Source: a virus. From it: a stretch of 34,246 nt of DNA. Below the pieces are notes generated by a model. The model ran no database searches. It was not told where the DNA came from and saw nothing but the letters and a program-made list of their open reading frames with translations. How positions within the stretch are numbered: position 1 is the first letter of the stretch; each line of letters begins with the position of its first letter. Below are positions 3,056 through 28,285 of the stretch, one piece after another. The position numbers and the translations under genes were made by a program. Where the stretch lies: positions 1-34,246 of the IMG/VR virus record IMGVR_UViG_3300003886_000027; one strand, given 5' to 3'.

Positions 3056-3414
3056 TGGCTAATTCATTAGATTTACGATTTAGTCCTTTAACGTTAAGAA
3101 GTGTAACCGGTGTAACATTGGCCAATCCCGCATTATTTTATGCAATTGGAGTTCCGTTAGAAGCTGAATGTCGTATTATAAAGTTTGATAACTTAACGAA
3201 TGTAGATGTCTTTATCTCTAGAAATGGTGTAACAGCTTTTACTATTATCCCTACAGGTGGATTTCTCTTGCTGGATATTACGGCGAACAAATCTAATCTT
3301 CAAGGTCTATTTATAGAAAAAGGTGCACAGTTTTGGGCAAATGCAGCGGTAGCTCCAACGAGTGGCTCTGTATATGTAAGTGCATTTACATCAGCTGGCG
3401 CTCTTGATGGATGA
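3055..3414 (+). CDS. Small virion-type beta protein, paralogue of the gene at 33324
   Basis: A 119-residue protein clearly related to the 113-residue product of 33324-33665: both start with a short LxLRFSPLTLRS/IRLKPEPLRS segment, share GGFLLLD[IV]xxN[KR]SNL and end SGS[VI]Y[VL]S. The pattern is all-beta. Both lie beside fibre genes, so a role in the fibre or tail tip, such as an adaptor, is plausible but inferred. The ATG overlaps the preceding stop (TAATG), and its own stop overlaps the ATG of the ERF gene, so it is translationally coupled at both ends. Confidence 0.72.
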   Translation: MANSLDLRFSPLTLRSVTGVTLANPALFYAIGVPLEAECRIIKFDNLTNVDVFISRNGVTAFTIIPTGGFLLLDITANKSNLQGLFIEKGAQFWANAAVAPTSGSVYVSAFTSAGALDG

Positions 3415-4126
3415 CTTTATTAAAAGTTTAGAAGAGTTACACGTTAAAGTAGATAAGTTAATTGGAATAGTTAAGCCGCACTCAACCGATCATAGAGAAC
3501 TATTTAAAGCTTTATCATTGGCACAAGCTGATTATACACAAGTTGATTTTAGCGGAAAGAATAGTCACTATAAAAACAAATATGCCACCTTGGGTGATCT
3601 GCAAGATGCAAGTAGAAAAGCTTTATGTTCTAATGGATTATCGGTATACCAACATCTTTATCAAGATGATAATGGCCATAACTTTTTAAAAACGGTATTA
3701 GCACATCTGAGTGGACAAACTTTAACTAGCACGGTAAGAATTGCACCCACTCAGAATAACATACATCAGATAGGAAGTTATTTAGCCTCTATGCGACGTA
3801 TGAGTTATGCATCATTGATTGGGTTATTGGTTCATGATGCGGATGATGACGATGGATTTACATGTATGGCAGATCGTGTAGATACAATTGCTAAAGGTAC
3901 AAAGCCTAGTTATACAAGTCCTAGTACAAAGAATGCTGAGTTCGATATGATTAGTAAGGCCGAGCTTGAAACATTGGAAAAATCAATGGGTTCTCATTAT
4001 GATCTGGGTGATGAGATTATAAGCGCCTACCAGATTCCTTCTTTATCCGATTTACCTAAAAGTAAATATGAGTTTGTTCTTGGCCAGATGCGCAGAAATG
4101 TAGCTCGTCGAGATGGATTGCTCTAA
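3407..4126 (+). CDS. erf: ERF-family single-strand annealing protein (first copy)
   Basis: A 239-residue recombinase of the ERF family, which anneals complementary single strands in phage recombination and genome circularisation. Diagnostic features are ELFKALSLAQADY, then HYKNKYATLGDLQDASRKAL and NGLSVYQ (roughly residues 35-90), the QxIGSYLASMRRMSYASLIG segment near 130, and an acidic HDADDDDG stretch that in this family follows the DNA-binding fold. The C-terminal ~80 residues form a separate region after a Ser/Thr-rich linker. I start at ATG 3407, overlapping the preceding stop; a GTG at 3380 is also open. A second ERF-like gene lies at 4847 across the divergent regulatory region. Confidence 0.88.
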   Translation: MDDFIKSLEELHVKVDKLIGIVKPHSTDHRELFKALSLAQADYTQVDFSGKNSHYKNKYATLGDLQDASRKALCSNGLSVYQHLYQDDNGHNFLKTVLAHLSGQTLTSTVRIAPTQNNIHQIGSYLASMRRMSYASLIGLLVHDADDDDGFTCMADRVDTIAKGTKPSYTSPSTKNAEFDMISKAELETLEKSMGSHYDLGDEIISAYQIPSLSDLPKSKYEFVLGQMRRNVARRDGLL

Positions 4127-4652: not shown

Positions 4653-4850
4653 ATGAAAAAAGACTGTGAAGAGTTGAGAGAAAGGTTATGGAAAGCATGG
4701 AAGTCTGCATTTTTAACAAAAGGCGCAATGGCAAAAGATATTGGAATTAGTTATGGAACATTTTCACGTTTTATAAATGGTTTTAATAAGATATCGATGT
4801 CTAGTTATTTAAGGATATTAGATTGGGTTGATTATAGGGAATCTCTATGA
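4653..4850 (+). CDS. Cro-like helix-turn-helix regulator
   Basis: A 65-residue DNA-binding protein made mostly of one helix-turn-helix domain: TKGAMAKDIGISYGTFSRFI fits the second and third helices of the lambda Cro/XRE type, with G-I-S at the turn. ATG 4653 is chosen because AGAGG lies immediately upstream; an in-frame TTG at 4635 has no such site. It is the first gene rightwards from the divergent palindromic promoter and overlaps the second ERF gene (ATGA). It probably regulates its own promoter and the leftward one. Size and position are those of Cro; whether the phage is temperate cannot be told from this alone. Confidence 0.82.
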   Translation: MKKDCEELRERLWKAWKSAFLTKGAMAKDIGISYGTFSRFINGFNKISMSSYLRILDWVDYRESL

Positions 4851-5404
4851 AAGATAAGTTAAATTTACTTACTGCATTGGCAAAAGCTCAAAGAAAGTTT
4901 TCCTCACTTGAAGAAAGTGCTAGAAATAATCATCAAAAGTATTCGTATGCTAAATTATGTGATCTTTATAATACGGTTAAGAAACCGTTAGATGATGCAG
5001 GTATAACTCTTACTCATCATAGATGTATAGATTCGGAGTTGGGTAAAATAATCCAAGTGACTACTATTACGCATCGTGAAAGTGGAGAGTATTTAGACGA
5101 TGAAGTTATTATCGAGAGTGAACGGCCTGGTCCACAGGGATTTTCAGCCGCATGTACATATGCAAAGAAGATGGGTATCAAGAATTTATGTGCTATTGAT
5201 GCGGGTGAAGATGATAATGATATGGTGGAAGATCATATATACATAGAGAACAAAAAGTTTGTAATAGATGTAATTAAATCTGCAGGAAATAAAGAAGTTC
5301 AAAATAATTTGTGGATAAAGTTAAAAGATAAGTTTCGTATTACAACTCTGGATAATGTTCCTGAAGATACGTTGAATAAAATGGTTAAGTTTCTTAAGAT
5401 ATAA
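4847..5404 (+). CDS. ERF-type annealing protein (second, divergent copy)
   Basis: A 185-residue protein with the N-terminal architecture of ERF recombinases: LTALAKAQRKFSSLEE, NNHQKYSYAKLCDLYNTVKK, LDDAGITLTHH, a beta pair IIQVTTITHRESGEYL, then GPQGFSAACTYAKKMGIKNL and the acidic DAGEDDND that matches the HDADDDDG of the copy at 3407. The C-terminal 55 residues are unrelated to that copy and may bind another partner. Start ATG overlaps the Cro-like stop and is preceded by AGGGA. Two ERF-like proteins in a 34-kb genome is unusual; the low similarity between them argues for separate origins or old divergence, not a recent duplication. Confidence 0.8.
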   Translation: MKDKLNLLTALAKAQRKFSSLEESARNNHQKYSYAKLCDLYNTVKKPLDDAGITLTHHRCIDSELGKIIQVTTITHRESGEYLDDEVIIESERPGPQGFSAACTYAKKMGIKNLCAIDAGEDDNDMVEDHIYIENKKFVIDVIKSAGNKEVQNNLWIKLKDKFRITTLDNVPEDTLNKMVKFLKI

Positions 5405-8320: not shown

Positions 8321-8834
8321 TGCTGAGCTTAAAAAAACTACTAAAAGAAAAAGAAAAGCTGCGATAAAAAGCGAGCCTCTATTATATTGGAATGCTTTTG
8401 AAGAGAAGGGAATACCCCTCTCGAAGATGACTGCACTCGCAAATGATCTAGTAGATGGCGTTAAAAAAGAACGATATTATACTATTGAACGCTTTCTTGC
8501 TCATCATCATATTCCATATCAAACTTGGAAACGATGGATGAAGAAATTTCCTATCGTTAAACAAGGCGTATTGAGCGCCAAAAACATTCTATATGACAAA
8601 CGAGTTCAAATGGGCTACAAAAAAGAATGCTCAGACCGATTACTTGCCGATATGTGGCGATACTCAGAAATGCACCGCGAAGATGTAGTTTGGGAAAAGA
8701 ATCTAAGCAGCGAAAAAATAAAAAACCTTGAACTACAACTCAAAAATCAAGTAGCCCAGGGATCTAGCACAATAACTATTGAACTTGATGGCGAGAAATT
8801 TACTATAGATAACCCCACATGCAAAGAGAAATAA
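8310..8834 (+). CDS. Probable terminase small subunit
   Basis: A 174-residue protein directly upstream of, and overlapping, the large terminase gene. ATG 8310 is chosen because GAGG lies nine bases upstream; an earlier in-frame ATG at 8241 would be buried in rusA. It starts with a basic tail (KKTTKRKRKAAIKSE), followed by a helical domain with a helix-turn-helix-like stretch TIERFLAHHHIPYQTWKRWM, and ends with a short beta segment STITIELDGEKFTID. TerS proteins bind the packaging site as rings and have this DNA-binding/coil/short-beta order. The assignment rests mainly on position and layout. Confidence 0.68.
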   Translation: MKTSAELKKTTKRKRKAAIKSEPLLYWNAFEEKGIPLSKMTALANDLVDGVKKERYYTIERFLAHHHIPYQTWKRWMKKFPIVKQGVLSAKNILYDKRVQMGYKKECSDRLLADMWRYSEMHREDVVWEKNLSSEKIKNLELQLKNQVAQGSSTITIELDGEKFTIDNPTCKEK

Positions 8835-11296
8835 AACCTGATATCTGGAAGGTACCCGTGGCCACTGAATCTTCTTCTGCAAATATCAAACTTTCACGAT
8901 TTAAACCAAGGTGGTACCAAAAAAGACTCATACGTGCTCTCTTTAAGGAAGGAAAAAAAAGAGCTGTATGTGTGTGGAGCCGTAGATGTCTCGATGGAGA
9001 TACTCATATAATTATGTCTGATGGCTCTTGGAAATATTTAAAGGATATTAATATTGGAGATAAGATATTATCTCATAATGGAATATCATATGAAGAAGAT
9101 ATAGTAGTTGATCACTGGGATGCTGGTATTAAAGATGCCATAAAGCTAAATAATCGATTTTATCTCCCCTTAGTGAGTTCTGGTGATCATAAATTTGCTA
9201 CTCTCACCCGTAATAAACAATCTATAAAATGGAAAAAGCTTGATGATTTTAGTGGATCAACTTCATGCTTGCAGTTTCAACGTGGTATCTCAGGAACTGT
9301 AGATAATAAACTTACTGCCGAGCTAATTGGTTATTTGCAGGGAGACGGTTATGTTGCTGGATATCAACAGCCAAAGTTTACTAATACTAACGTTGAAATT
9401 CTTAATCGTGTTGATGAACTTGCTAGAATCCATGGTTGCGTTCCAATATGGAGAAAAAAAGGAAATGGATACGACATTGGTCTTTCTAATGGAACCCTAG
9501 GAGGCGCATCTAAGAATAATATTAAAGAGATATTTAGAGAATTTGGACAAGACGTTCCCAAGTATAAACAACGTATTCATCCCATTATATGGAATATGAA
9601 TGATGAATCTGTATTTCGCTATTTATCAGCTATAATTTCATGTGATGCTTCTATTACTTATAGATTTTCTTCATCTCCGATTGACCGTTTTAATAAAAAA
9701 GCTAATGCAGAGATTGTTATTCATTGTGGAGTTTCTGAGGATTATGCATTCGATATGTATTGGTTGCTTAGAAAGGTTGGTATTTCTCCACAGCGTCCTA
9801 AGTGCGAAAGAGGATCCAATTGGAAGATACGCATATCTAAAGTTAATTCTCTTAAGATACTACTTAATAACGGTCCTTTTGTTGGGAAAGAAGAAAAACG
9901 AAAAGAGTGCCTTAAGTTCATAGATCATTTATCAAAAGAATACCAGATTCACTTTGAAAATTATGAAGCTCTTCCGAGAAAAAATGATACTGATCCTGTT
10001 CATATGTACGATATTCGAACCAAAAAGAATCATAATTTTGTTGCAAATGGATATCTCGTCCATAATTCAGGAAAAGATTTCATGGCCTGGCAATTAGCTT
10101 TTTGGCAATGCTTAGCTCACAAATGTACTGTCTTCTATGTTTTTCCAACTCAGGCTCAAGCTAGATCGGCTATATGGTCTGGTATAACTATAGATGGTCA
10201 ATCATTTCTAGACTATATTCCCCCAGAACTTATATATAAAAAGAATGAAGCTCGTATGGAAATTACCTTCGTCAATGGATCTATATTAGCCCTTAAAGGA
10301 TCTAATAACTTTGACTCTTTACGTGGTACCAACCCATATATGTGTATATTCTCTGAGTATTCGTATCAATCTCCGGATGCCTGGACATTGTTTTTACAGC
10401 CAGTTTTACGTGCGAACGATGGAATTGCAATATTCATCTCCACACCTTTTGGAAAGAACCATTTATATTCTCTTTATGAAATTGCAAAAAATTCTCCTGA
10501 TACATGGTATTGCGATCTATTGACCGTAGAAGATACAGGTCATATAGATGTACAAGAAATTAAAGATGATGTAGCAAAAGGTCTCATATCGGAAGATCAA
10601 ATGCTTCAAGAATATTATTGTTCGTTTACTCAGGGAGTAGAGGGATCAATCTATGGTAAATATATAAATAATCTTCGTCTCGACAATAGGATTACTACTG
10701 TTCCACATGAGCCAGGGCACCCAGTGCATGTAGCATGGGATCTTGGATGGAATGATAGTACAGCTCTAATATGGTTTCAATCTATTGGGAAAGTAGTTAA
10801 TCTAATTGATACTTATGAATGTAATCGTAAGCCATTAGAGCACTATGTTAATATAATTAAAGATAAAGATTACACCTATGGAACGCATTTTCTTCCTCAC
10901 GATGGTAAAAATCATGAGCTTATTGCAGGTATATCAAGAGAGAGAAAATTACGTGATCTAGGACTTAATATTAAGATTCTTGAACGTGTACGTATTGTAG
11001 ATCGAATAGAGCAAGCACGGTGTATGTTTGCTCGTTTATGGATGGATGAAACAAAGAGTGCTCCATTGATTAAAGCTCTTGAAAATTATCGAAGAGAATG
11101 GGACGATAGGCTTAAAAGATATAAAGATAATCCACTTCACGATTGGTCTTCACATTTAAGTGATTGTTTTTCTTATATGGCTATGGCTTTACAACATACT
11201 AAGCGTGGAATGACCCAACAAGATGCGGATGAGCTACGTAGAAAAGCTCTAATGAAAAATACAGGCCAAGGACCACAATTTTTAAATTATAGTTAG
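8819..11296 (+). CDS. terL: Terminase large subunit, interrupted by an intein
   Basis: An 825-residue precursor that should splice to a 465-residue packaging motor. The N-terminal extein (1-56) ends at WSRR. The C-terminal extein begins SGKDFMAWQ at 417, so the rejoined WSRRSGKD is the Walker A loop. Further motifs are IFSEY at about 511-515 (Walker B, Ser in place of the usual Asp), AIFISTP (537-543, coupling motif), and a nuclease domain with AWDLGWND (Asp 641), PHDGKN (694-699) and HDWSSHLSDCF (774-784). The protein cuts concatemers and pumps DNA through the portal. The start overlaps terS by 16 bp with no clear ribosome-binding site, so translation is probably coupled. The unspliced protein has a broken ATP site. 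Confidence 0.93.
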   Translation: MQREIKPDIWKVPVATESSSANIKLSRFKPRWYQKRLIRALFKEGKKRAVCVWSRRCLDGDTHIIMSDGSWKYLKDINIGDKILSHNGISYEEDIVVDHWDAGIKDAIKLNNRFYLPLVSSGDHKFATLTRNKQSIKWKKLDDFSGSTSCLQFQRGISGTVDNKLTAELIGYLQGDGYVAGYQQPKFTNTNVEILNRVDELARIHGCVPIWRKKGNGYDIGLSNGTLGGASKNNIKEIFREFGQDVPKYKQRIHPIIWNMNDESVFRYLSAIISCDASITYRFSSSPIDRFNKKANAEIVIHCGVSEDYAFDMYWLLRKVGISPQRPKCERGSNWKIRISKVNSLKILLNNGPFVGKEEKRKECLKFIDHLSKEYQIHFENYEALPRKNDTDPVHMYDIRTKKNHNFVANGYLVHNSGKDFMAWQLAFWQCLAHKCTVFYVFPTQAQARSAIWSGITIDGQSFLDYIPPELIYKKNEARMEITFVNGSILALKGSNNFDSLRGTNPYMCIFSEYSYQSPDAWTLFLQPVLRANDGIAIFISTPFGKNHLYSLYEIAKNSPDTWYCDLLTVEDTGHIDVQEIKDDVAKGLISEDQMLQEYYCSFTQGVEGSIYGKYINNLRLDNRITTVPHEPGHPVHVAWDLGWNDSTALIWFQSIGKVVNLIDTYECNRKPLEHYVNIIKDKDYTYGTHFLPHDGKNHELIAGISRERKLRDLGLNIKILERVRIVDRIEQARCMFARLWMDETKSAPLIKALENYRREWDDRLKRYKDNPLHDWSSHLSDCFSYMAMALQHTKRGMTQQDADELRRKALMKNTGQGPQFLNYS
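8987..10066 (+). mobile_element. Intein with LAGLIDADG homing endonuclease in the TerL P-loop
   Basis: A 360-residue intein, residues 57-416 of the precursor. It starts with Cys57 in block A (CLDGDTHIIMSDG, then INIGDKILS), has a block B-like SSGDHKF, and ends with block F YDIRTKKNHNF and block G NGYLVHN; the next residue is Ser417. Cys1, the His-Asn end and the +1 Ser are the residues needed for standard splicing. In block B the usual Thr of T-x-x-H is Ser. Between them lies a two-motif LAGLIDADG endonuclease: ELIGYLQGDGY with Asp176 and YLSAIISCDAS with Asp276, exactly 100 residues apart, so both catalytic acids remain. The element therefore looks able to splice and to home. Confidence 0.94.
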
Positions 11297-17293: not shown

Positions 17294-18478
17294 ATGATTA
17301 CAACATCCTCAATACTGCCAGCTCCAGTACAAGCTCATTTTGACAAAGCTTTACTATCTGTTCCGTATCCCAACCTTATACATGGTTTAGTTGCAGAACA
17401 ACGTAGTATGCCTTCTCATAGTGGTACTTTATGGCGTGGTAGACAATATAACGCATTAGCAACGGCCGAAGTTGCTTTGGGAGATAAAGGTATTGAACCT
17501 CCTGCTGAATCACTCACAGCAGTTGATATAGATGCAAAAGTAGAATGGTATGGTAAATCAGTAGTTCTTAACGAACAAGTGGTAATCCAGAACCAGGACC
17601 CTAAAATGTATGGGGTCGGTAAATTTTCCCTGATTGACTTGGAAGCCGAAGTAGCTTTTAGCTAACCGGTGACAGGGGCGAACCGTTAAAGTAGACGGAC
17701 GTTGAACGACTGAGTGGGAGAACCTTCACTATTGAAGGATGCGACAGTCTGAACACGACTCGATAAGGTCGTGAGGGAGATCCGAAGAGGTTTCCCCGCC
17801 AGAAATGGTCAGTAGCCGAAGGGTGAAAGTAACAGAACGGTACTTAACCAAGCAGTAAAACGTCTTGGTCAATCTTTACGTGAAACTGAAGATAAATTAT
17901 TGCGTGATATGCTGGCATCTACGGCTACATCTATTAATGCTACTGGTGGAACTAATGGTGATACTCCTACCGAAATTAGTGCAAGTGATATTGAAAAAAT
18001 AACACGTAATCTAATTGGTAATGATGCATTTACTGTTACTGACCATATTGAAGCAGAAGATAGAATTGGTACAGCTCCTGTAAGAAATGCATTTGTTGCA
18101 ATGGCACATAGTGATATTATTGGAGATCTTGAGGCAATTCCTCGTTTCCAATCAACTAATGAATATGCACAATATGAAAAACGGCTGAATTCAGAATGGG
18201 GAGCATATAGAAATGTACGATTCTTTGTCTCTTCTGCTGGTTCAGTACAAAAAAGTGCATCTGCATTAAATAAAAACGTTTACAATGTATTTATTTGTGG
18301 AATGGAATCTTATGGTAGTATCAAGCAAGATTTAGCATCAGCTAAATTTATTTATAGAGATCCTTTATATTCAGGCGCATTGGCTCTTAATGGTACGGTA
18401 GCTTATAAATTTGCATCTGCTCAGGTTATTTTCCATGATGAGTGGATTCAAAAACTACGTTGTACAATAGCTAATTAA
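17294..18478 (+). CDS. Major capsid protein (N4-gp56 family), split by a group I intron
   Basis: The gene has two exons, 17294-17602 (103 codons) and 17840-18478 (212 codons plus stop); joined they give 315 residues, a usual size for the family. Exon 1 holds FDKALLSVPYPNLIHGLVAE, WRGRQYNALATAEVALGDKG and VEWYGKSVVLNEQVVIQNQDP. Exon 2 resumes with VLNQAVKRLGQSLRETEDKL, the order expected in N4-gp56 coat proteins (…T-x-x-DP-x-L…A…L-G…R-x-x-D). The phase is intact: the break falls between two codons (Pro103/Val104). Without splicing translation would run into the intron and stop at TAA 17663-17665. AAGG precedes the ATG, and a dedicated promoter lies upstream. Exon borders rest on intron pairing and protein continuity. 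Confidence 0.9.
17603..17839 (+). ncRNA. Group I self-splicing intron, 237 nt, no internal endonuclease
   Basis: The 5' site follows T17602: exon GACCCT (17597-17602) pairs with the guide GGGGTC (17612-17617), with the obligatory U-G pair at the splice point (P1). GTAT (17608-17611) pairs with the first bases of exon 2, GTAC (17840-17843), as P10, which fixes the 3' site after G17839 (the terminal omega-G). P6-like CCGT/ACGG is at 17683-17698. P7 is GACTG (17708-17712) with CAGTC (17745-17749). P8 is CCTTCA/TGAAGG (17723-17738) with a 4-nt loop. P9 is ACGACT/GGTCGT (17755-17772). P3 and P4 were not resolved by eye. It contains no open frame for a homing enzyme. Confidence 0.9.
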
Positions 18479-19914: not shown

Positions 19915-20931
19915 ATGGCAGCAGATTTAAATGCAATACGTACGAAGATTCGAAGACTAACTCGTTCGCCGAGTATTCAACAGATTTCTGATGCCGACAT
20001 TGATGAGTATATAAATACTTTTTATTTATATGATCTTCCAGAATCTCTTCGATTGTTTTCTTTAAAGAAGACGTTAAGTTTTTTTACTGAGCCACATGTA
20101 GATCAATATGTTAGTGGAGAGGTTTCCGGATTAGAAGATTTTAAGAACCTATATTCTACGATTGAAACTCCAGTTTATGTTGCGGGTAATTTAGCTTACT
20201 ATGCACAATCTCGAGAAGAGTTCTTTAATCTTTATCCAATAGTTAGTTTTAGACAAACTATTGCTACAGGTGACGGTGTAACTACCGCATTTAGTGGAAC
20301 ACTTTCTAATATTCCTATTATGCAACATAGAGTTTCATTTGTATCTGAAGATATAAATGGTAATGCATTGGTTTTAGAAGATAAAACAAATTCTTCATTG
20401 GTTAATCCTAATGAAGAAGGCGATCTTATGGAGCCGGGAAAAACTACCTTAGCCGGTGGTATAGGATATGTTGATGGAAGTTATACTTTTGATTTTTATC
20501 TTAATAATGTAATTACTGCACCAGCAAATGGTGCTATTATACAAGCACAAACGAGACCTTATGTAGCTTCTATTCCACAAGCGGTTCTGTACTATGATAA
20601 TACGTTCACACTTCGTCCTGTTCCTGATAAGGCCTATAAAATAACGTTTGATGCATATATGCGACCAACTGCATTTCTAGATAACCCTTCATCAGAGCCG
20701 GAACTTGAACAGTGGTGGCAATATCTAGCATATGGAGCAGCTAAAAAGATATTTGAAGATAGGGCAGATATTGAATCAGTCCAAATAATTATGCCAGAAT
20801 TTCTAAAACAAGAAAGACTCGTATTAAGAAGAACGTTAGTTCAAAAAGCAACACAACAAGCAGCAACCATATATAATTTTCAAGGAAATGGAAATTGGTT
20901 CAATGGTGGATATTGGGGAAATAGTTCATGA
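19915..20931 (+). CDS. Probable head-tail adaptor / neck protein
   Basis: A 338-residue protein beginning LNAIRTKIRRLTRSPSIQQI, SDADIDEYINTFYLYDLPES, a pattern of conserved podovirus neck-region proteins in which an N-terminal helical adaptor-like part docks under the portal. The middle (TGDGVTTAFSGTLSNIPIMQ) is a beta domain similar to a widespread phage module, and AVLYYDNTFTLRPVPDKAYK leads into a helical C-terminus (LEQWWQYLAYGAAKKIFEDR). AAGGA precedes the ATG; the stop overlaps the next ATG. The adaptor assignment is inferred from motif memory and order. Confidence 0.66.
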   Translation: MAADLNAIRTKIRRLTRSPSIQQISDADIDEYINTFYLYDLPESLRLFSLKKTLSFFTEPHVDQYVSGEVSGLEDFKNLYSTIETPVYVAGNLAYYAQSREEFFNLYPIVSFRQTIATGDGVTTAFSGTLSNIPIMQHRVSFVSEDINGNALVLEDKTNSSLVNPNEEGDLMEPGKTTLAGGIGYVDGSYTFDFYLNNVITAPANGAIIQAQTRPYVASIPQAVLYYDNTFTLRPVPDKAYKITFDAYMRPTAFLDNPSSEPELEQWWQYLAYGAAKKIFEDRADIESVQIIMPEFLKQERLVLRRTLVQKATQQAATIYNFQGNGNWFNGGYWGNSS

Positions 20932-21305
20932 GATGTAAAATGTGTGATAAAAATACTAATTCAAGAAGGCATTACTGTAGTTTAGAATGTGCATTAAAGG
21001 CACGTACGGTAAAACATGATAATTGTTTATTTAGTAGTTCCAATTTAATTGTACATAAAAATAAAAATTATCTTCCGAATCGGTTAGCATTTGAACTATA
21101 TATAAGAAAACTGCCGAAAAATCATAGTGTATATTCTTCATGTGGAAGAAAAGAGTGTATTCAGCCACGGCATTTATATTCAAAAAAAAGAATGTATATA
21201 AAAAAACCTGAAGATAGGAAAAATATATATTGGCCTACTTTTTGGGAAAAGTTAAAGTTATACTGGTACGGATTAAAAGAAATATTAAATAAAAAAAGAG
21301 TTTAA
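20928..21305 (+). CDS. HNH-like homing endonuclease relative lacking the first catalytic His
   Basis: A 125-residue, basic, Cys-rich protein. The N-terminus has C-K-M-C and C-S-L-E-C pairs (residues 3-20), a likely zinc-binding knot. The centre, NRLAFELYIRKLPKNHSVYS then SCGRKECIQPRHLYS, matches the zinc-loop class of HNH homing endonucleases, whose usual form is V-x-H-x-C...C-x-N-P-x-H-L. Here the first His of the motif is Ser (VYSSC), while the Cys pair and C-terminal H-L remain. It may be a dead nuclease kept for DNA binding, or a variant in which the nearby His at KNHS acts. It overlaps the adaptor gene (ATGA), an insertion position typical of free-standing homing genes. Confidence 0.72.
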   Translation: MRCKMCDKNTNSRRHYCSLECALKARTVKHDNCLFSSSNLIVHKNKNYLPNRLAFELYIRKLPKNHSVYSSCGRKECIQPRHLYSKKRMYIKKPEDRKNIYWPTFWEKLKLYWYGLKEILNKKRV

Positions 21306-28209: not shown

Positions 28210-28285
28210 TGGTAGCCTAGGAGGGAATCGAACCCTCTTCTTCAGGATGAAAACCTGACGATCTTAACCAATAATCCACAAGGCC
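28210..28285 (-). tRNA. tRNA-Glu (UUC) with encoded CCA
   Basis: 76 nt on the minus strand folds as a full cloverleaf: acceptor GGCCUUG/CUAGGCU with one U-U mismatch, D stem GAUU/GAUC, anticodon stem UCAGG/CCUGA with loop UUUUCAU (anticodon UUC), T stem GAGGG/CCCUC with loop UUCGAUU, discriminator A and an encoded CCA end. It reads GAA/GAG, abundant in this A+T-rich genome. It lies between two minus-strand protein genes. The encoded CCA and complete fold suggest it is functional. Confidence 0.95.

Follow-up and report, generated by a model that had tools for sequence, protein, structure and literature searches.

A probable self-splicing group I intron in an N4-gp56-type capsid gene and its relatives in phage coat genes

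Background

Group I introns in capsid and tail genes of phages have already been published. In Cluster J mycobacteriophages, group I-like introns occur in virion genes and are spliced in vivo, with RT-PCR evidence (Pope 2013, PMC3706429); the capsid intron of LittleE, which was assigned there as most likely group I, carries an antisense LAGLIDADG gene, and the intron in the minor tail gene of BAKA is 265 bp long and lacks an endonuclease (PMC3706429). The crAss-like phages of the Delta and Zeta groups can have several group I introns in a single MCP gene, one such gene being split into five fragments (Yutin 2021, PMC7886860). The staphylococcal Kayvirus phages 812 and PM25 have an annotated Intron_gpI in a capsid/tail tube gene, which the phage 812 record (EF136582) names 'truncated capsid protein'. 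A recent survey still states that phage group I introns prefer DNA-metabolism genes (PMC12350094).

Here we analysed a stretch of viral DNA of 34,246 nt, referred to as the window (IMG/VR virus record IMGVR_UViG_3300003886_000027, positions 1 to 34,246), in which the major capsid gene is interrupted. We consider, with a probability of about 95% and judging from the sequence, that a group I intron, compact and self-splicing, forms the interruption and is an allele of a mobile family that colonises coat genes. It resembles the LittleE intron in lying in a virion gene and differs from it by the absence of the antisense LAGLIDADG gene, and it resembles the BAKA intron in having no endonuclease; Cluster J is another phage group, and the likeness is one of description. 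The staphylococcal introns likewise lie in a structural gene. The crAss-like introns were found through their endonuclease domains, whereas members of the family described here are mostly compact, ORF-less and located in N4-gp56-type and P22-type coat genes. As capsid introns in phages are already known, the single intron of the window is ordinary in kind. The first-pass annotation had presented both the capsid location and the lack of an endonuclease as unusual, and the published cases lend it no support on either point. The literature searched held no description of this family or of its many N4-gp56 sites, which is not proof of absence.

Results and discussion

The interrupted gene encodes an N4-gp56-type major capsid protein

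Joining the two exons (Table 1) gave an in-frame protein of 315 amino acids, which matched the N4-gp56 major capsid model TIGR04387 with an E value of 1.3e-45 (156.1 bits, cut-off 60) over positions 1-321 of 324, that is, over its full length. The protein also matched phrog_1357 (E 2e-34) and Pfam Phage_capsid_4, and the host gene had thus been named correctly. Without splicing, the capsid frame runs past QNQDP at 17602 to a stop at 17663, so that translation of the unspliced RNA would end after 123 residues; stops are present in all three frames of the insert.

The junction is contiguous and free of any insert in L003, an IMG/VR relative with 52% identity, and NQDP|VLN or a close variant of it is contiguous in 78 of 80 further relatives fetched, a set selected for an uninterrupted gene middle, which favours intact genes and shows the form of intact alleles rather than their frequency. 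Because these 78 relatives have nothing between NQDP and VLN, the residues encoded by the insert are not part of the protein, and the comparison with intron-free capsid genes suggested earlier came out in favour of the intron. The proposed reading-on from QNQDP to VLNQAVKRLG is borne out by the same relatives and L003. The spliced protein and the relatives agree that the boundaries first proposed, exactly between two codons, are right to the base. No direct or inverted repeats were found at the intron borders.

Table 1. Positions of the capsid gene exons, the intron and its structural elements in the window
Feature	Position	Strand	Paired segments or content	Evidence
Exon 1, N4-gp56 family major capsid gene	17294..17602	+	residues 1-103 (...QNQDP)	spliced translation, TIGR04387, phrog_1357
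Group I intron	17603..17839	+	237 nt, phase 0 (between codons)	structure, uninterrupted relatives, leave-out model
Exon 2, capsid gene	17840..18478	+	VLNQAVKRLG... to stop	spliced translation, TIGR04387, phrog_1357
P1	17597..17617	+	5' exon 17597-17602 (GACCCU) / internal guide 17612-17617 (GGGGUC)	
P10, guide half	17608..17611	+	pairs with 3' exon 17840-17843	
P3	17624..17722	+	17624-17630 / 17716-17722	
P4	within 17638..17676	+	17638-17641 / 17673-17676	
P5	within 17638..17676	+	17645-17647 / 17668-17670	
P6	17677..17703	+	17677-17680 / 17700-17703	
P7	17706..17750	+	17706 and 17708-17712 / 17745-17750, bulged C17707	
P8	17723..17738	+	17723-17727 / 17734-17738	
P9-region hairpins	17755..17825	+	17755-17760/17767-17772; 17775-17782/17789-17796; others	minimum-energy fold only
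Terminal G of intron	17839..17839	+		as in group I introns

Structure of the window intron

All of P3, P4, P5, P6, P7 and P8 form in the window copy with zero mismatches. As in other group I introns, the 5' splice site lies at a U.G pair in P1 (U17602.G17612), the intron ends in G, and P7 has a bulged base beside a G-C pair, G17708-C17749, which we take from the known group I P7 to be the guanosine-site pair. P1 with its U.G pair, P10, P7, P8 and the terminal G, all read directly from the sequence at the outset, were upheld; the P9 reported with them comes from the minimum-energy fold only. That fold is unremarkable (z -1.24), and folding energy alone is uninformative for this intron. In introns of subgroup IA (T4 td and Twort type), extra P7.1/P7.2 elements separate the 5' strand of P7 from the 3' strand of P3; these are absent from the window intron, which has only 3 nt (17713-17715) at this place.

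Covariation and model searches

A core motif was derived via the relative in the coat gene of ctn9Y15, and a scan of IMG/VR with it yielded more than 120 stretches. We aligned 51 family cores, with the secondary structure written by hand. Since these rows were picked by fixed motifs, one at the junction of P3 and P4 and one in the 3' strand of P7, invariance there is partly a matter of selection, while the varying 5' partners were free. In the 51 relatives, 97.0% of the P3-P8 cells were paired, compared with 38-50% when the structure was slid along the alignment, and changes on both sides of a pair occurred at 18 of the 29 pairs. Double-change cells numbered 229 (68 in shuffles, 25-43 when slid), and the covariation score reached 0.454, where shuffles gave 0.175 and slid structures no more than 0.106. 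P5 was the weakest helix, with 83% of its cells paired. The P7 pair beside the bulge exchanges A-U for G-C in 6 of the 51 relatives; the G-site G-C pair is invariant in all 51 rows, where invariant letters are in part due to the row selection. The family thus has both P3-P8 and P4-P6 of the group I core, with covariation, as well as the bulged P7.

A covariance model made from 44 other members, with the window left out, gave the window 85.4 bits (E 4e-18); the window intron is therefore not a chance match. Searched with Rfam Intron_gpI, on the other hand, the window gave no match at the gathering threshold (50 bits) nor up to an E value of 10, and searches of further loci up to E 10 or 1 gave almost no matches. 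Among about 19 introns of the family that were searched, the Rfam model reached a single one, that of L048 (35.3 bits, E 1.9e-5), below the threshold. Conversely, the family model found the annotated Intron_gpI of the staphylococcal phages with E 0.0067. Over 40 nt of the core, on the P8-P7-P9 side, the Kayvirus introns share 90% identity with L048; these introns differ in carrying the endonuclease I-812I, in scoring 17.9 bits by the family model and in host gene and site. As all structural features of group I are present, we read the Rfam miss of the window intron as a sensitivity limit of the Intron_gpI model. The first-pass annotation had named the lack of a covariance match among the grounds for giving up the intron; used in that way the search would have misled, the intron being real.

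Pairing at the splice sites

Among 58 introns that lack a P2 hairpin, 57 have a guide that forms 6 bp or more with the 5' exon of the same intron, a figure partly built in, since a search for P1 had been used to place the guide; swapped guides, which serve as the control, matched the 5' exon in 110 of 3258 combinations (3.4%). A terminal G was present in all 17 phase-0 introns whose alignment, by protein homology, starts exactly at the junction. Three alleles at the window's site (the window, L013 and L012) have different P10 pairings, each matching its own 3' exon.

Endonuclease genes at the same site

There is no ORF or endonuclease gene inside the 237-nt intron, and the window copy itself is not an endonuclease-bearing homing intron. 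The earlier description of the intron as endonuclease-free holds for this copy and fails for the site: in both L106 and L014 the intron at this position has an antisense LAGLIDADG gene within the P6 loop, supported by Pfam LAGLIDADG_1 for L106 (E 1.2e-6, above the cut-off) and weakly for L014 (E 0.032). In L013 a remnant of the C-terminus of 10 codons was found (NFRFHEHHFK, compared with NSRWHDHPLK), scoring above all 2000 shuffles, and the P6 loop of L012 holds an unrelated ORF of 72 codons. On the simplest history, the intron at this capsid site is mobile, and the endonuclease was most likely lost from the window copy.

A relative of the window coat gene, L004 3462-4300, has two family introns at other sites, one of them with an antisense LAGLIDADG gene. 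In the window, a small Cys-rich ORF of 125 aa with an HNH-like pattern, CGRKECIQPRHLY, is located at 20928-21305; it had no significant Pfam or NCBIfam match, and it is possibly a free-standing endonuclease, 3 kb after the intron.

Host genes, insertion sites and spread of the family

Among 118 introns with a usable exon, 25 interrupted coat genes of the N4-gp56 type and 37 those of the P22 type, and other exons matched further head proteins and the ribonucleotide reductase, tape measure and portal families; these counts rest on the first 120 stretches that a single motif scan gave, near-duplicates included, and apply to this sample rather than to nature at large. With L003 as the reference, the N4-gp56 gene of about 315 codons has about 17-19 insertion sites between residues 24 and 305, and the P22-type coat genes have about eight. 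Some single coat genes contain three or about four introns. Even at the 80 loci chosen for an intact gene middle, 17 had a match to the family model, 12 of them at E <1e-6.

Phase 0 was found in 23 of 28 mapped N4-gp56 introns (L003 678-1613, residues 24-305), perhaps an effect of third-position U, which can match P1 without a change of the protein; no such preference is seen in the P22-type gene.

When the intron was compared with phage records by blastn, one real relative was obtained, in ctn9Y15 (MW202674), where a same-family intron lies in a P22-type coat gene that the record splits into two CDS; both gene and site differ from those of the window. This is also true of another family intron, in the cultured marine Roseobacter phage CRP-118 (OR420741; L244 2527-2642, 99 bits with the family model), which lies between two CDS that are both annotated as ribonucleotide reductase. 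When bacterial genomes were scanned with 16-mers, most of the matches were due to chance, with a model match at 4 of the 80 loci tested, 3 of them strong.

The pairwise identity of the cores was 0.705 for the same site in different phages, 0.656 for different sites in the same phage and 0.648 for neither. With values so mixed, the spread is not explained by homing alone, nor by copying within a genome alone. An evenly balanced proposal is that these introns may form a distinct compact group I lineage, largely invisible to Rfam, which uses coat genes as a landing ground and gains new sites by retargeting of the guide. Reverse splicing or trans-acting endonucleases, for example, could bring about such retargeting, and endonuclease genes would be both acquired and lost along the way.

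Proposed splicing and alternative explanations

By analogy with known group I introns, we infer that the window intron splices, and does so with guanosine. In the transcript, the guide would form P1 with the last bases of exon 1 and P10 with the first bases of exon 2. The first attack, after U17602, would come from an external guanosine bound in P7. The freed exon 1 would then attack after G17839, which would join ...NQDP to VLN... and give the 315-residue coat protein. The same-site relatives with a LAGLIDADG gene in the P6 loop suggest that the window copy is an allele of a mobile element that most likely lost its endonuclease, in a family that has colonised the coat genes of many uncultured phages repeatedly and at many sites, the guide matching each new site.

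If the intron were instead decayed and no longer spliced, the capsid gene would be broken or the protein would come from elsewhere. The window copy retains no endonuclease, as decay would have it; however, the core helices, U.G pair, P10 and terminal G are intact without a mismatched pair, both exons are open and conserved, and no other capsid-like gene was noticed in a non-exhaustive look through the window, which makes decay very improbable. Two further readings are still harder to accept: that the insert is coding, or that it is an intron of another class, either group II or an unnamed ribozyme. The Rfam miss would fit another class, but P3-P8, the bulged P7, the U.G splice pair, P10 and the terminal G are the group I set, and family member L048 does reach Intron_gpI; a coding insertion is at odds with the stops that interrupt every frame of the insert. 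Group II intron, coding insertion and pseudogene were accordingly rejected.

It might also be supposed that the intron persists for a regulatory effect of its splicing on capsid synthesis; the first-pass annotation had suggested that splicing efficiency could set capsid levels. The host is indeed a structural gene, in which unspliced RNA stops after 123 codons. However, the site is empty in 78 of the 80 relatives fetched (a set that favours intact genes), and the family's sites are scattered over the whole gene, as those of a mobile element would be, with no link to regulation. We regard this explanation as very improbable, and a capsid level governed by splicing is speculation.

Implications for annotation and intron mobility

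What is new, given a compact mobile group I intron, is the scale: about 17-19 sites in one gene, with up to about four introns per gene. Rfam mostly misses the family, so that annotation presents such coat genes as broken or divides them into two CDS, and split coat genes should be expected by gene callers and by capsid-based phage taxonomies. A single short gene here offers many insertion sites, many phages and many stages in the loss of the endonuclease, which makes the old question of the route by which group I introns reach new sites directly testable.

Other features of the window

The terminase large subunit ORF at 8819-11296 contains an intein with traces of LAGLIDADG, inserted in the ATPase motif (SRRC...HN|SGKD); it scored 31.8 bits with Pfam Intein_splicing, just below the cut-off, and was above the cut-off for the intein C-terminus model TIGR01443. 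Inteins in the terminase are likewise found in crAss-like phages (PMC7886860). In addition, the window has a tRNA-Glu (ttc) on the minus strand at 28210-28285 and two separate ORFs of ERF-family recombinases, at 3380-4126 and 4847-5404.
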